Origin: Acidimicrobiia bacterium
GTDB taxonomy: Bacteria; Actinomycetota; Acidimicrobiia; IMCC26256; BP-133
DNA length: 11,986 nt
Reading direction: 5' to 3'
Assembly (NCBI GenBank): GCA_025934385.1
Contig: JAICYE010000025.1
Span: 1-11,986 of the forward strand
This document shows, one piece after another, positions 2,727 through 10,625 of the stretch (position 1 is the stretch's first letter; each line of letters begins with the position of its first letter). Under the pieces are notes generated by a model. The model was not told the origin of the DNA. It worked only from the letters and a program-made list of their open reading frames with translations, and did no database searches. The position numbers and the translations under genes were made by a program.

Positions 2727-3463
2727 TGCTCGCCGTCACCGGCCTCGAGGTGGGCTACGCCGGCGCGCCCGTCCTGCGGGGAATCGACCTCGAAGTCGGC
2801 GACGGCGAGGTCATGGCCGTCCTCGGGCCGAACGGGGCCGGGAAGACGACGCTGGCCCGGGCCGTGACCGGCGTCGTCCGGCCGATGGCGGGAACCATCA
2901 CCTTCGACGGGCACCGCATCGACCGGCTATCGCCCAGAGCGATCGTGAAGGTGGGAGTCGTCGGCGTGCCCCAGGGCCGGCGGGTGTTCATGGGCCTCAC
3001 CGTCCTCGACAACCTCCGCGTCGGCGCCCACACCCGGGGCCGCCGGGCCGCCTCCGATGTCGACTGGGCCCTCGACCTCTTCCCCGGGCTCCGGGCCCAG
3101 GCCTACCGGCCGGCGGCGGCCCTCCCGGCCGGCGAGCAGCAGGTGCTGGCCCTGGCCCGTGCCCTGGTCAGCCGGCCGAAACTGCTGGTCGTCGACGAGC
3201 TCTCGGCCGGGGTTTCGCCCGCCCTGGCCTGCCAGTTGTTCGACGTGCTGCGGGGGCTCCGCCTGGCCGGCGTGTCGCTGCTGGTGATCGACCAGTTCGT
3301 GAACCTTGCACTGGGGCTTGCCGATCGGGCGATTGTCATCGAAAATAGTCGGGTATGTCTGTGTACAGAGTCAGGTAACCTGGCCCTGGCAGACGTCTCA
3401 TGGCAGTCGACGCACCCCGGCGGAGGCGACTCCGCCAGTCGAAGCAAAGGAGCACCCCAATGA
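2726..3463 (+). CDS. livF: LivF-like branched-chain amino acid ABC transporter ATP-binding protein
   Basis: Second ATPase of the importer, 245 aa, close to the usual LivF length. The ATG at 2726 shares its A with the LivG stop (TGATG) and has GGGAGAG at 2711-2717, 8 bases upstream. Motifs are Walker A GPNGAGKT (34-41), the LivF-type VPQGRRVF (81-88), LPAGEQ (133-138) in place of LSGGEQ, and Walker B LLVVDEL with Asp157 and Glu158. Gln190 replaces the switch His, which is normal for LivF (family VEQN, here IDQF). The last 40 residues are divergent: AENG-like ENSRV is still collinear with the family, but codons such as AAT, AGT, GTA, TGT and ACA appear that are rare in this window. The 3' end probably doubles as regulatory sequence for the next gene, which it overlaps by ATGA. 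Confidence 0.88.
   Translation: MLAVTGLEVGYAGAPVLRGIDLEVGDGEVMAVLGPNGAGKTTLARAVTGVVRPMAGTITFDGHRIDRLSPRAIVKVGVVGVPQGRRVFMGLTVLDNLRVGAHTRGRRAASDVDWALDLFPGLRAQAYRPAAALPAGEQQVLALARALVSRPKLLVVDELSAGVSPALACQLFDVLRGLRLAGVSLLVIDQFVNLALGLADRAIVIENSRVCLCTESGNLALADVSWQSTHPGGGDSASRSKGAPQ
3333..3382 (+). promoter_or_regulatory. Possible promoter/operator region inside the 3' end of livF
   Basis: This stretch is clearly less GC-rich than its surroundings and uses codons foreign to the window. It holds TTGTCA (3333-3338), which resembles a -35 box, and two short inverted repeats: TCTGT-gt-ACAGA (3358-3369) and CAGGT-a-ACCTG (3372-3382). No convincing -10 box lies at 17 bases; TATGTC (3354-3359) is only 15 away. 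It may be a promoter or operator for the secreted-protein gene at 3460. This is a weak call, resting on composition and symmetry alone. Confidence 0.25.
3419..3436 (+). promoter_or_regulatory. GNRA-capped hairpin just upstream of the 3460 gene's ribosome binding site
   Basis: GGCGGAG (3419-3425) and CTCCGCC (3430-3436) form a perfect 7-bp stem closed by a GCGA tetraloop, a stable GNRA type. It ends 9 bases before the Shine-Dalgarno AAAGGAG (3446-3452) of the next gene, and it lies inside the last codons of livF. It could tune translation of the downstream gene or stabilise a processed transcript. It is too far from any T-run to be a terminator. Confidence 0.45.
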
Positions 3464-4965
3464 AGCTGGGCGCCCGTCTCCCCCGGGGCCTGGCCGTGGC
3501 GGCGGTGGCAGCCGCCACGGTGGTACCGCTCGCGGCCTTGCCCGCGTCGGCGGCGCCAGCCGCTCCCGCTGCCTACAGCGTGTACAGCAGCGCCCAGCCA
3601 CTTGTCTGGGCCGACTCCTCGAGCGTCCCCGTCGGCGACGTCCACGTCCCGTCGGTCGTGGGCAACGCCAACCCCCTCGGCATGGCCAGCGCCTACGCCG
3701 CCCTGAGCAACCCCGACGGATCCGGCAAGACGATGTCGGGTCAGACGATCAGCGGCCTGCAGTGCAGCGGATACGACGCCTGCAAGGACCCGTTCCTGAT
3801 GACGGCCCGGGCGGGGCACGAGGGTGACGCCGCCGGGCACAGCGAGCAGTCCGCCTCCTTCACCGGCAGGGACGGGAAGTTCCCCGGCAACATCCACGCC
3901 ATCACCGACTGCCCCGGCGCCTGCGCCTCGCAGCCCGTCCACTCGACCGGCACCGCCGCCGGGCCGGCCGGCAACCTCCCCGGCTACGTGAGCATCGGTG
4001 CCTCGTCGGCCACCCAGGACCTGTCGATGGACGACAAGGGCCGCCTGGTCTCGACCGCCACGTCGGAGCTCGACAACGTCTCGATCGGGCCGAAGAACGA
4101 GGTCCACTTCTCCCGCCTGCTGACCACCGCCCAGGCCCTCGGCGCCGGCGCCGAGAACAGCAAGGACGGCCGGGCCGACATCCGCATCGACAACTTCTAC
4201 ATCCTCGACAACCCCGTCGAGCTCACCCGGGCCGGGCTACGGCTGGCCAACGCCGGCCCCTCGGAGCAGGAGGCCTACGACGGCGCCAAGGTCCTGCTCA
4301 AGAAACGGAAGGACCGGGGCATCATCCTCAACCTGCCGAACGTCGACGCCCAGGTCACCAAGACGCCCGACCACGTGACCGTCGACGTCCCGGCCCTGTC
4401 GGTGATCTTCGAGCAGTCGGCCGGGCCGGTAACGGCGGCCCTGAGCGACCCCGTCCAGCTCGGTCACTCCACCGCCGTCGTCGCCGCCATCGACACCAAC
4501 AAGCACATCGAGGTGCGTCAGGACAGCAAGGGCAACCCGGTCGTCGTGACGACCACGGCCCCCTCGGCCGTGGCACCCCCGGCGTCGGAGCCTCCGGGCC
4601 CGAAGCCGCCTGTGTCGACGCCGCCGGACGGTAAGCGGCCTCCCGCCGGTCAGGGCCACAGCGTCCCGCCCGGGCCGACCGGTACGGGCCTGGCTCCGAC
4701 GACTCAGGGCGTGACGAGCACGCCGCCCGGTCCGGGCGGATCGACGACATCCGGCCCGGCGATCGACCCCGGCTCCTCGTCGACGACCGACAGCGCCGCC
4801 CAGGGGCTGCAGGATCCGAGCCAGAACGCGATGCCCAGCGTGAAGGACGTGGAGAACAAACTGGGTCTGCGGGGTGCTCACAGCGTCAGCCGGGCCTTCG
4901 GGGCGTTCATCGGCCTCGGGCTCATCCTGCCGCTGTCCCGCTTCCTGATCCGCCGCTTGGGGTAG
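3460..4965 (+). CDS. Secreted, C-terminally membrane-anchored protein of unknown function
   Basis: No family recognised. The ATG at 3460 is chosen over an in-frame ATG at 3400 because AAAGGAG (3446-3452) lies 7 bases upstream, it overlaps the livF stop as ATGA, and it puts a signal peptide at the N terminus. The product is 501 aa. Residues 1-31 are a Sec signal (likely cleavage PASA/APA). A Ser/Gly/Asn-rich, probably beta-rich ectodomain follows (about 38-365), with two close Cys pairs (102/108 and 151/155). A Pro/Thr/Gly/Ser linker resembling a wall-spanning stalk covers about 367-445. A final hydrophobic helix (about 478-498) ends in LIRRLG, giving an anchor without an LPXTG motif. Translational coupling to livF suggests a surface role tied to uptake, but it does not resemble a LivJ-type binding protein. 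The TAG stop is also the outer edge of the 4963-5125 palindrome. Confidence 0.85.
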   Translation: MKLGARLPRGLAVAAVAAATVVPLAALPASAAPAAPAAYSVYSSAQPLVWADSSSVPVGDVHVPSVVGNANPLGMASAYAALSNPDGSGKTMSGQTISGLQCSGYDACKDPFLMTARAGHEGDAAGHSEQSASFTGRDGKFPGNIHAITDCPGACASQPVHSTGTAAGPAGNLPGYVSIGASSATQDLSMDDKGRLVSTATSELDNVSIGPKNEVHFSRLLTTAQALGAGAENSKDGRADIRIDNFYILDNPVELTRAGLRLANAGPSEQEAYDGAKVLLKKRKDRGIILNLPNVDAQVTKTPDHVTVDVPALSVIFEQSAGPVTAALSDPVQLGHSTAVVAAIDTNKHIEVRQDSKGNPVVVTTTAPSAVAPPASEPPGPKPPVSTPPDGKRPPAGQGHSVPPGPTGTGLAPTTQGVTSTPPGPGGSTTSGPAIDPGSSSTTDSAAQGLQDPSQNAMPSVKDVENKLGLRGAHSVSRAFGAFIGLGLILPLSRFLIRRLG

Positions 4966-5125
4966 TGACCGGTCGGGCCAATGGTCGGCGGCTCTCTCCG
5001 GCCAGAATCGCCCCTGCCGGCGTCCTCCTCGTCGGCCTAGCTTCAGCTAGGCCTCCTCGTCGATCCTTGGCAGGTACGATTCTGACTCGGAGATCCCTCG
5101 CCGCCACCGGCCCGACCGATCACTA
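4963..5125. repeat. 163-bp interrupted palindrome, MITE-like, filling the intergenic gap
   Basis: The gap folds on itself end to end. Paired arms, left with right, are: TAGTGA 4963-4968 with TCACTA 5120-5125; CGGTCGGGCC 4970-4979 with 5109-5118; GGT 4983-4985 with ACC 5106-5108; GGCGGC 4987-4992 with 5100-5105; TCTCCG 4995-5000 with 5088-5093; CAGAATCG 5003-5010 with 5077-5084; CCTGCC 5013-5018 with 5069-5074; and GGCCTAGC 5034-5041 with 5046-5053, around a TTCA loop. That is about 53 pairs. The 15-base ends 4965-4979 and 5109-5123 match at 14 of 15, and each is bordered by TA, as expected for a Tc1/mariner-type MITE with a TA target duplication. An 11-base direct repeat (CCTCCTCGTCG, 5024-5034 and 5052-5062) flanks the apex. 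Alternatives are a structured RNA or a bidirectional terminator. No transposase is present. Confidence 0.7.
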
Positions 5126-5134: not shown

Positions 5135-5572
5135 TTGGAACCGATTGCGGGTGCCGCTGCCGACCGGCGGGAGCAGCAGGCTCAGCTCCAGGCGCTCGTC
5201 CAGGAACAGCTCTTCCGCCGCTGGCGGGCCGTGCTGGGCTGGATCCTGATGGCCGCCGGGGGCGTCGCCATCCTCGTCGCCTGGTACCAGGTCCGCGACC
5301 TGCCCCAGGTCTTCCTCCAGATGCCCTACCTCATCAGCGGGGGCGTCGGGGGTGCCGTGCTCATCGGCCTCGGGGCGGCGCTGCTGATCACGCAGGACTT
5401 CCGCGACGACAAGCAGCGGCTCACCGACCTGGAGCGGAAGATCTCCGAGATGGAGGACGTCCTGCTCACCCAGGCCGACCTCATCGGCGAGGCCATCGCC
5501 ATCCTGTCGTCGGCCGCCGAGGGCGCCGAGTCCGAGGTCCGCCGGGCCGTCTGGCGCCGCGGCCGGGGCTGA
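5135..5572 (+). CDS. Small two-helix membrane protein with C-terminal coiled coil, unknown function
   Basis: No family recognised. The product is 145 aa from TTG 5135 with AGGAG upstream. Residues 1-30 are hydrophilic and Gln/Arg-rich. Two membrane helices follow (about 32-50, containing GWILMAAGGVAILVAW, and about 65-86, containing ISGGVGGAVLIGLGAALLI). Residues 88-128 form a charged heptad-like helix (DDKQRLTDLERKISEMEDVL), and the tail is Arg-rich. The layout suggests a hairpin in the membrane with both ends in the cytoplasm and a coiled coil for oligomerisation or partner binding. It is the first gene of the operon running to 9176, and its stop is overlapped by the probable start of the ferredoxin gene. 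Confidence 0.75.
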   Translation: MEPIAGAAADRREQQAQLQALVQEQLFRRWRAVLGWILMAAGGVAILVAWYQVRDLPQVFLQMPYLISGGVGGAVLIGLGAALLITQDFRDDKQRLTDLERKISEMEDVLLTQADLIGEAIAILSSAAEGAESEVRRAVWRRGRG

Positions 5573-6643: not shown

Positions 6644-6691
6644 CCGGATAGCGTCGACGGTTCGAGCCCGCTCGCAGAGGAGGCGGTGGCA

Positions 6692-8470
6692 GTGGCGCTG
6701 GAGACGATTCCCCAACTCGTGCTCGGGAACGCCCGGCGGTTCGGGGCGGCGCCGGCCTACCACGTGCGGGGCCCGGGCGGCTGGGAGGCGACGTCGTGGG
6801 AGCGCTACGCCGCCGAGGTCCGCCAGGCCGGTGCGGCGATCGTGGCCCTCGGCGTCGAGCCCGGGCAACCGGTGTGCATCCTCGGCGCCAACCGGCCGGA
6901 GTGGGTGATCTCCGATGTCGGGGCCATGGCCGCCGGGGCCGTGCCGGCCGGGATCTACGCGACGTCGTCGCCGGCCGAGTGCGCCTACATTCTCAACCAC
7001 TCCGAGGCGCCCGTCGTTGTCGTGGAGGACGAGGCCCAGTGGCAGAAGATCGTCGCCGTGCGCAACGAGCTGCCCCGCCTCCGCCACGTCGTCACGATGC
7101 GGGGGACACCGGAGATCGACGACCCCCTGGTGCTGGGCTGGGACCAGTTCCTGGCCGGGGGCGCCCGGGCCGGCGCCGAGGACGGGCTCGACCAGCGGCT
7201 GGCGGCGCTGCGGCCCGACACCATCTCCACCTACATCTACACGTCGGGTACGACCGGGCGGCCCAAGGCCGTCATGCTCACCCAGGACACCATGGCCTGG
7301 ACGGCGGCCCAGGCCTGCGAGCTCGTCGGCGCCACGCGGCAGGAACGGGTGGTGTCGTACCTGCCGCTGTCGCACATCGCCGAGCAGATGTTCACCATCC
7401 ACATCGCCGCCACGGCCGGCTTCGCCGTCTACTACGCCGAGTCGCTCGACCGGCTCAACGCCAACCTCGTCGAGGTGAAGCCGACGCTCTTCTTCGGCGT
7501 GCCCCGGGTGTGGGAGAAGTTCCACGCCGGCGTGCTGGACAAGCTGGGCGAGAACACCGGCGTGAAGGCCAAGCTGGTCGAGCAGGCCACGGCCGTCGGC
7601 CGCAAGGTCACGACCCGGCGGGCCGCCGGTCAGGGCGTGCCGATCGCCGACGCGGCGCAGTTCACGCTCTTCGACAGGCTCGTGTACTCGAAGGTGAAGG
7701 ACGGGCTGGGCCTGTCGGAGGCCCGGCTCTGCGTGAGCGGCGCCGCGCCGGTGTCGAAGGACGTCCTGGAGTTCTTCGCCGGGTTCGGGCTGCCGGTCTA
7801 CGAGGTCTACGGCCAGTCGGAGGACTGCGGCCCGACGACGTTCAACGTCCCGGGCCGGACCAGGTTCGGCACGGTCGGGCCGGCCTTCCCCGGCGTCGAG
7901 GTGAAGATCGCCGGAGACGGCGAGATCATCCTGCGGGGCCGCAACGTCTTCGCCGGCTACGCCAAGGACCCCGAGGCCACCGCCGAAGCGTTGGCCGACG
8001 GGTGGCTTCACACCGGCGACCTCGGCGAGTTCGACGCCGACGGGTACCTGTCGATCACCGGCCGGAAGAAGGACATCATCATCACGGCCGGCGGGAAGAA
8101 CGTCGCCCCCAAGCTGCTCGAGGGGGGCTTGACGAACCACCCGCTCGTCTCGGAGGCCGTCGTGATCGGCGACCGGCGCAAGTTCCTCACCGCCCTGGTG
8201 ACGATCGACCCCGACGCGGCGGCGAAGTTCTGCCGAGAGCGGGGCGTGGCCGGCCCGCCCGACCAGAGCGCCGAGATCCGGGGCGAGATCCAGCAGGTGG
8301 TGGACCAGGTCAACACCGAGCTGGCCCGGGTCGAGCAGATCAAGAGGTTCACGATCCTGTCCCGGGAACTCTCGATCGCCGAGGGCGAGCTGACGCCGAC
8401 GCTGAAGGTCAAGCGCAACATCGTCGCCGCCCACTTCGAGGCCGAGATCGAAGCCATGTACGCCGACTGA
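6692..8470 (+). CDS. fadD: Long-chain fatty acid-CoA ligase (AMP-forming), FadD15/bubblegum type
   Basis: Activates fatty acids to acyl-CoA through an acyl-AMP intermediate, for beta-oxidation or lipid synthesis. GTG 6692 is chosen because AGAGGAGG (6676-6683) is 8 bases upstream; the in-frame GTG at 6686 would be only 2 bases away. The product is 592 aa, a usual length. All ANL-superfamily cores are present: P-loop YTSGTTGRPK (183-192), YGQSE (373-377), TGD (441-443), GRKKD (457-461), and the C-terminal catalytic Lys572 in LTPTLKVKR. YGQSEDCGP in place of YGxTE, and the GRNVFAGY segment, resemble the bubblegum (ACSBG) and FadD15 branch. It lies 48 bases after the esterase and 1 base before the TauE gene. 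Chain-length preference cannot be read. Confidence 0.93.
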   Translation: MALETIPQLVLGNARRFGAAPAYHVRGPGGWEATSWERYAAEVRQAGAAIVALGVEPGQPVCILGANRPEWVISDVGAMAAGAVPAGIYATSSPAECAYILNHSEAPVVVVEDEAQWQKIVAVRNELPRLRHVVTMRGTPEIDDPLVLGWDQFLAGGARAGAEDGLDQRLAALRPDTISTYIYTSGTTGRPKAVMLTQDTMAWTAAQACELVGATRQERVVSYLPLSHIAEQMFTIHIAATAGFAVYYAESLDRLNANLVEVKPTLFFGVPRVWEKFHAGVLDKLGENTGVKAKLVEQATAVGRKVTTRRAAGQGVPIADAAQFTLFDRLVYSKVKDGLGLSEARLCVSGAAPVSKDVLEFFAGFGLPVYEVYGQSEDCGPTTFNVPGRTRFGTVGPAFPGVEVKIAGDGEIILRGRNVFAGYAKDPEATAEALADGWLHTGDLGEFDADGYLSITGRKKDIIITAGGKNVAPKLLEGGLTNHPLVSEAVVIGDRRKFLTALVTIDPDAAAKFCRERGVAGPPDQSAEIRGEIQQVVDQVNTELARVEQIKRFTILSRELSIAEGELTPTLKVKRNIVAAHFEAEIEAMYAD

Positions 8471-10008: not shown

Positions 10009-10566
10009 ATGCGATTCAGAACGGTTCGAGTGAAGGTCGGCGCGTTCGCGATGGCCGCCGCCACGACGGGCTTCGTCGTGGGGCTGGCGGTGCTCAACGG
10101 AGGAACCGCCCAGTCCATCGGCGGGTTGTGCAACGGGCAGCCGGCCAGCCATCCGTACTTCGACGCGTCGGGGCAGCCCGGCCCGACGCTCATCGACGGC
10201 ACCGACCACGACGACGTCATCATCGGCAGCGACGGCGACGACCACCTCGACGCCGCCGGCGGCGACGACGTCGTCTGCGGCGGGCTCGGGGACAACGACA
10301 TGGAGGGCGGGTCGGGCGACGACGTGATGCGGGGCGGGCCCGACGAGGACGACCTCGAGGGCGAGTCCGGCAACGACACCCTCGTCGGTGGCGGGGGCGG
10401 CGACACGCTGGCCGGCGGGACGGGGCACGACTTCATCGATGCCGGATCCGGCGACGACATCCTCATCGGCAACGACGACGACCAGGTCGACAAGATGAAC
10501 GGCGGCGACGGCTTCGACGACTGCCTGTTCAGCGCCGGCGACGAGGTCGCCAACTGCGAATACTGA
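10009..10566 (+). CDS. Secreted RTX-type calcium-binding repeat protein
   Basis: The product is 185 aa from ATG 10009, with GGGGAG (9998-10003) 5 bases upstream. An N-terminal hydrophobic segment (about 10-31) after MRFRTVRVKV acts as a Sec signal or anchor. Residues about 63-170 are nonapeptide repeats of the GGxGxDxLx type, for example GGSGDDVMRG, GESGNDTLV, GGTGHDFID and AGSGDDILI, which fold as a calcium-bound beta-roll in known RTX proteins. The end, GGDGFDDCLFSAGDEVANCEY, carries two of the four Cys (41, 90, 172, 183). Unlike classical RTX toxins it has an N-terminal signal, no visible catalytic domain and no type I secretion genes nearby. Its role could be calcium-dependent surface binding or structure; function unknown. 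Confidence 0.85.
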   Translation: MRFRTVRVKVGAFAMAAATTGFVVGLAVLNGGTAQSIGGLCNGQPASHPYFDASGQPGPTLIDGTDHDDVIIGSDGDDHLDAAGGDDVVCGGLGDNDMEGGSGDDVMRGGPDEDDLEGESGNDTLVGGGGGDTLAGGTGHDFIDAGSGDDILIGNDDDQVDKMNGGDGFDDCLFSAGDEVANCEY

Positions 10567-10585
10567 CCAGCGTCGGATTTGGCCG

Positions 10586-10625
10586 GGCGGAGCGCCGTCG
10601 GGAATCGCCTCGGCGGCGCTCCGCC
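10586..10625. terminator. Stem-loop terminator between the RTX gene and the multicopper oxidase gene
   Basis: GGCGGAGCGCCG (10586-10597) and CGGCGCTCCGCC (10614-10625) form a perfect 12-bp stem; the 16-base loop can pair further with G-T wobbles. It lies 19 bases after the RTX stop and 14 bases beyond the oxidase stop, so it probably ends transcription from both sides. Confidence 0.75.

Follow-up and report, generated by a model that had tools for sequence, protein, structure and literature searches.

The window, i.e. the whole 11,986-nt stretch of contig JAICYE010000025.1 of an Acidimicrobiia bacterium (assembly GCA_025934385.1), contains a long palindrome between two co-directional genes (Table 1). 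For the upstream gene, neither Pfam nor NCBIfam gave a match at E 0.001, the downstream gene likewise matched neither, and none of the 10 ORFs of the window that were scanned with Pfam matches a transposase, in agreement with the transposase-free surroundings described in the first-pass annotation. That annotation had placed one pairing structure of about 53 base pairs over the whole gap at 4963–5125. The coordinates are correct, and the gap does fold on the plus strand into a single hairpin spanning 163 nt, but the fold contains 61 pairs rather than 53. Its energy is −98.7 kcal/mol (z = −10.9), and 200 dinucleotide shuffles gave −59.5 ± 3.6 kcal/mol, none of them reaching so low a value; the minus strand folds at −119.5 kcal/mol. 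Several details of the same description also hold: the terminal 15 bases match at 14 positions, both borders carry TA, the TAG at the left edge is the stop codon of the upstream ORF (with a C-terminus, R-L-G-stop, identical in the related loci L001 and L002), and the right edge adjoins a Shine-Dalgarno-like TAGGAG ahead of the TTG at 5135. Elsewhere in the window, an ORF containing many GGxGxD-like repeats (judged by eye) precedes a strong, short inverted repeat (10586–10625), the two together occupying 10009–10625.

Table 1. Features of the palindrome and its flanking genes (R1, R2, covariance models; A5, alignment; L001–L003, related loci).
Feature	Position	Strand	Basis or remark
Upstream gene	3460..4965	+	Stop codon inside the left edge of the insertion
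Left copy of the duplicated target TA	4963..4964		Doubles as the TA of the upstream TAG stop; the empty sites of L001, L002 and L003 have one TA
Left terminal inverted repeat	4963..4984	+	Profile of the ends of 131 distinct flanked copies; 86% pairing with 5104–5125 over 22 bp
Element body, 159 bp, GTGACCGG...CCGATCAC	4965..5123	+	Strand given as in models R1 and R2
Inner stem arm, outer part	4985..4997	+	Sequence variable, pairing retained family-wide
Conserved core	4998..5090	+	CGGCC stem, further paired stretches, two loop strands and apical hairpin; consensus of 90 copies, alignment A5
Right terminal inverted repeat	5104..5125	−	Pairing with the left repeat and end profile
Right copy of the duplicated target TA	5124..5125		Empty-site comparison
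Downstream gene, TTG start	5135..5572	+	91.7–93.1% identical in L001–L003

Relatives of the locus were collected by scanning a genome collection with the acyl-CoA ligase encoded at 6686–8470, which yielded 79 loci. The gene at 5135 is encoded in only three of them (L001, L002 and L003, from genomes of one family, whose class we take to be Acidimicrobiia). The junction in all three is TTGGGCTAGGAG, and the window has TTGGGGTAG[...]CACTAGGAG at this place, reading TTGGGG TAG TGACC...GATCAC TAG GAG; the 161 extra bases correspond to 159 bp and one extra TA. The sequence of L003 begins only five codons ahead of the stop, and the flank boundaries extrapolated in L001 and L002 leave exactly 2 bases between them. 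The stretch at 4963–5125 is an insertion of 159 bp plus one extra TA. The TA target duplication proposed in the first-pass annotation is thus seen directly, as one TA in the empty sites of all three relatives having the junction and two in the window, and the comparison with loci lacking the element, which had been suggested as a check, speaks for mobility. The window locus presents both the terminal inverted repeats and the target-site duplication of a miniature inverted-repeat transposable element (MITE). When all flanks were compared with all collected loci, clean empty boundaries were found for the window copy only; the same comparison revealed a divergent nuoI/nuoJ-like junction in L205 without the element. 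An empty site for the copy in L101, whose flanking genes we take to be sucC and sucD, was sought in genomes G001 and G002, but the gene pair found (L277) appears to be non-orthologous and is uninformative.

The element is dispersed. Using blastn, the window element matched two, one and four places in G001, G002 and G003, respectively (all three sampled genomes of the closest family), and none in G004; the match in G002 is a 72-bp half that neither covariance model recovered. Five complete copies, aligned over 163 columns with one gap and showing double changes in 21 of 58 consensus pairs, were used to build model R1, and 75 copies, including that of the window, were used for model R2. The element body of the window scores 119.1 bits with R1, for which it was outside the training set, and 132.7 bits with R2. 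R1 matched at least 78 of 395 genomes of the class at E ≤ 1e-3. Because at most seven candidates were scored per genome, this count and the copy numbers in the class are lower bounds; G351, outside the 78, also holds a copy (in L251). At the level of the order, R1 matched 5 of 58 genomes; blastn with the window element matched 9 of these, weakly in the six that lie outside the family; and 19 of 396 genomes of a phylum sample gave matches, 6 of them already present in the class sample. R2 matches numbered 3, 0, 10, 13, 1, 20, 100 and 22 in G001, G002, G003, G049, G123, G146, G223 and G373, respectively, some places being counted on both strands (at least 10 in G223). The 2.3-Mb genome of G223 thus has about 100 matches, with some on both strands, and several sub-types occur together in it. 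In the 1.29 Mb from 80 sources formed by the window and the 79 loci, R2 found the window copy and one weak match (31.8 bits). The genome-wide search for copies, likewise suggested earlier, accordingly returned many, which points to mobility rather than to a single-copy feature, and dispersal is found together with presence and absence at one site.

In total, 133 copies were collected, 117 of which are 163–166 bp long. Two longer copies with apparently central extra sequence are L122:1501-1720 (220 bp) and L119:1501-1681 (181 bp). In some genomes the copies are near-identical, which points to recent spread. G049 has eight of them, at up to 99% identity (median, 97.5%), and its end sequence, found nine times in this genome, is absent from the 13 others of the same family. 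In several other genomes the copies differ widely (median identities, 64–79%). The closest relatives of the window copy, in L110 and L101, are 74.5% identical to it. Among the G223 loci (L138, L165, L181, L190, L199, L200 and L233), L181 carries two unlike copies within 1.2 kb. The copies in L106 and L205 lie inside putative NADH dehydrogenase operons at different junctions (nuoI/nuoJ and nuoH/nuoI; gene names presumed from recognition of the translations). Neither phages nor plasmids gave a blastn match to the window element; the L153 copy had no match in plasmids and the L138 copy none in phages. Two pattern matches in viral contigs were taken as chance, one (L080) having no second arm and lying in gene-like sequence, by eye, and the other (L295) having no model match.

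The flanks and ends of 131 distinct copies share the profile C (66–70%), T (75–77%) and A (82–90%), followed by G (95%), T (87–89%) and G (96–97%), and the consensus at both ends is approximately C-TA-GTG-S-YCYGTC-NNNN-AANT; the left terminal repeat of the window copy fits approximately TA-GTG-S-YCYGTC-N4-AANT loosely, by eye. Of 118 copies whose ends are clear, 61 have TA on both sides and the other 57 lack it on one or both. Five of nine TA/TG copies (L106, L157, L158, L195 and L205) have TAG at the left end and read CACTGATG at the right end, whose TGATG resembles a stop codon overlapping a start codon. These copies could have arisen by insertion at TG and subsequent repair of the upstream stop, or by an event without duplication. 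Later decay of the TA does not account for all of the copies, and the CACTGATG pattern is poorly explained by simple decay.

A gene-like frame ends exactly at the element edge in 60 of 128 distinct copies (≤170 bp). This association is mostly attributable to the choice of CTAG as target, since 19 of 48 CTAG sites lying outside elements in the same loci, and assessed on both sides, are stop codons as well; with almost as high a frequency at other CTAG sites, a mechanism specific for stop codons was not retained. CTAG itself is approximately four times rarer than base composition predicts in the 311 kb of copy loci (251 vs. 1,032 sites), 101 of the sites being outside elements. As the first base of the element is G, insertion at the TA of a TAG stop rebuilds TAG, so that the copy lies flush with the stop and the upstream protein is unchanged. 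Element edges can also recreate CTAG targets: L251:1-1256 seemingly holds an IS630-type transposase element and a 168-bp family member (1089–1256) side by side, the former ending at the very TA with which the latter starts.

Both the TA target and the ends recall the IS630/Tc1-mariner group, and the IS630 DDE domain (PF13358) was used as a marker of its transposases. This domain occurs in 65 of 395 genomes of the class and in 11 of the 78 element genomes (one below the cut-off), vs. approximately 12.8 expected, i.e. without enrichment in these fragmented metagenome assemblies; in the three closest genomes, which are also fragmented, no match exceeded the cut-off. The lack of enrichment may reflect gaps in the assemblies, the action of another enzyme, or a transposase that was lost once the element had spread. 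Among 33 IS630 loci collected from the class, at least 14 show element-type ends that face each other at a distance of 1.13–1.25 kb, as the first-pass annotation had proposed looking for. The left neighbour of these ends is c in all 14 and the right neighbour g in 13, TA at both ends being there by construction because the end search required it. Four of the 14 (L255, L259, L266 and L271) are in genomes belonging to the 78. Ends of five of the 14 match element ends in blastn (22–34 bp, 86.7–95.5%), and the other nine have no such match at E 0.001; among the matches listed (E ≤ 0.001), all fall in the terminal 34 bp and none in the core. By eye, sub-types also agree, TAGTGGTCCGTCGCTCAAAT (L265) with elements of G337 and TAGTGATCTGAGTCAGAAGT (L256) with elements of G049, the insertion sequence copies being in other genomes. 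Several sub-types of the family thus share their ends with IS630 elements; no IS630 with the end of the window copy itself, GTGACCGGTCGGGCCAAT, was found among the 33 loci. Other IS630 loci of the class (L249, L258, L260 and L263) have quite different ends (AAGAGGTTCG...AATACAG and similar).

Compensatory changes, whose lack in homologues was to count against an RNA structure, are abundant. When 75 copies were aligned with MAFFT, blind to structure, the named stem was paired in 80.0% of its cells, vs. 61.7% with shuffled partners and 29–44% with slid partners, and double changes occur in 53 of 56 stem pairs (695 cells vs. 239); the few pairs that cross the central loop are poorly supported (44–49% of cells paired). 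Among 17 representatives less than 70% identical to one another, pairing reaches 89% in the 19 pairs of the terminal repeats (shuffled, 63%) and 79% in the 29 pairs of the inner stem (columns 24–63 and their partners), for which shuffling gave a mean of 62% and a maximum of 65% and sliding gave 25–34%. Covariation in the terminal repeats is expected because both must fit one transposase. Covariation beyond them, beside conserved loops, is unexpected and is not required by the IS630 mechanism. Identity among the 17 copies rises from 42–45% in the outer part of the inner stem to 63–69% beside the loop and 73–74% in the two loop strands, which face each other, are mostly unpaired and non-complementary, and form the best conserved part of the element. 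In the window copy, these strands are GCGTCCTCCTCGTC and TCCTCGTCGATCCTTG, and the apical hairpin is GGCCTAGC-TTCA-GCTAGGCC. The simplest reading of the inner-stem pairing suggested by these alignments is selection on the fold, and we infer that such selection may have kept the whole hairpin, beyond the terminal repeats.

The main rival to selection on the fold is repair by template switching, during which one arm of a palindrome is copied onto the other in replication. A MITE whose stem is maintained in this way would acquire corresponding changes in its two arms even if the hairpin had no function. However, the best conserved strands are the non-complementary ones of the central loop, and, by eye, alignments A2 and A5 have their bulges and mismatches in the same columns; copying alone should erase such persistent loops, bulges and mismatches, which weakens this explanation, and we consider it unlikely, if still a serious contender. 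Conservation of structure past the terminal repeats would also suit a mobile hairpin moved by a different enzyme, such as a single-strand Y1/RAYT-like transposase that recognizes the fold and inserts it without target duplication. The lack of enrichment of the IS630 domain in element genomes points the same way, as do the asymmetric ends of many copies (e.g. TAGTG...CAC/TGATG), which are simpler to understand as duplication-free insertions. Against these stand the agreement in type, including the CTAG context, between the ends of the family and those of the IS630 elements of the class and the TA found at both ends in more than half of the clear-ended copies, and we give such an enzyme little credence.

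The first-pass annotation had left a structured RNA or terminator as the alternative to a mobile element. A fixed RNA, attenuator or terminator inherited with its gene pair would account for the very stable fold on both strands, the strong covariation and the position between co-directional genes. As a sole explanation it is refuted by its absence from the same junction in all three relatives, and other copies adjoin other genes. The direction of the element relative to the gene ending at it is 26 vs. 21 (p = 0.56), and, of 109 copies assessed on both sides, 31 lie between convergent genes and 12 are entered by a reading frame; with copies in either direction and some between convergent genes, a strand-specific function is unlikely. 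Rfam gave no match at the gathering score, with two matches far below threshold, and an intrinsic terminator was rejected, as there is no TTTT or AAAA within 4963–5125 or just outside. A fixed RNA is hence hardly credible by itself; an added role as RNA is compatible with the compensatory changes.

We conclude, with a probability of roughly 0.93, that the window copy is a gene-less, 159-bp MITE of the IS630/Tc1-mariner type that is moved in trans by an IS630-family transposase. It is short and has stop codons in five of its six reading frames and no transposase gene. Empty sites, dispersal, the target preference, the covarying hairpin and IS630 elements of the class with like ends are all observed, and the non-autonomous IS630-type element envisaged at the outset is supported by the copies, the empty sites and these IS630 ends. 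For the window copy itself, we infer that the mover was an IS630 transposase. Such an enzyme would recognize the terminal repeats, excise the element and insert it at TA, preferably within CTAG, duplicating the TA. CTAG being scarce and often a gene end (xxC TAG), the initial G of the element would then restore the TAG. The likeliest two roles of the core would be to aid movement or persistence as folded DNA, or to make insertion tolerable in operons as an RNA hairpin. More tentatively, and with rather more doubt than confidence, the element might be modular, comprising an old core hairpin with a job of its own, as DNA or RNA, and outer arms jointly re-fitted to different IS630 transposases across the class.

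An IS630-associated transposon reportedly prefers TA within CTAG, according to the title of a 1991 paper by Tenzen and Ohtsubo. Nezha of cyanobacteria, which belong to another phylum, is said by title to be an active MITE and is presumably akin to IS630. To our knowledge, most bacterial MITEs have been described within one genus or a few relatives. No earlier account of such a MITE in Acidimicrobiia was found, judging by titles in a literature coverage outside which most subscription journals lie, and the combination of MITE, IS630 and CTAG returned work on Pseudomonas rather than on Acidimicrobiia. Bacterial MITEs are generally regarded as insertion sequences that have undergone internal deletion and depend for their movement on the transposase of the parent (PMC3189936). 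Of 39 in vitro products of ISY100, an IS630-family element, 34 were insertions at TA that had duplicated it, and 3 showed TA at one end but a lone A at the opposite end (PMC2170065); IS630 and ISY100 carry their own transposase, unlike the gene-less family described here. RUP of Streptococcus pneumoniae, which accompanies IS630-Spn1, is likewise short and non-autonomous, with IS630-like terminal repeats and a TA-containing target, but, compared by description only, it is 107 bp long and is described as a repeat of one species, with no other signature of structure or function (PMC2229807). The Acidimicrobiia family, in contrast, spans the class sample and has a conserved core and a covarying stem. 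Correia/NEMIS elements of Neisseria, also compared by description only, have a 155-bp form, TA ends and a stem-loop RNA that is a proposed RNase III substrate (PMC2229807), but occur in different hosts.

One MITE family, recognizable by its core and fold, thus occurs throughout the class sample. In a small genome it attains about 100 matches, and its evolution resembles that of a structured RNA. The family makes it possible to test whether the core of a MITE is under selection of its own. It also offers a ready explanation for hairpins lying flush with stop codons, which might otherwise be mistaken for terminators.
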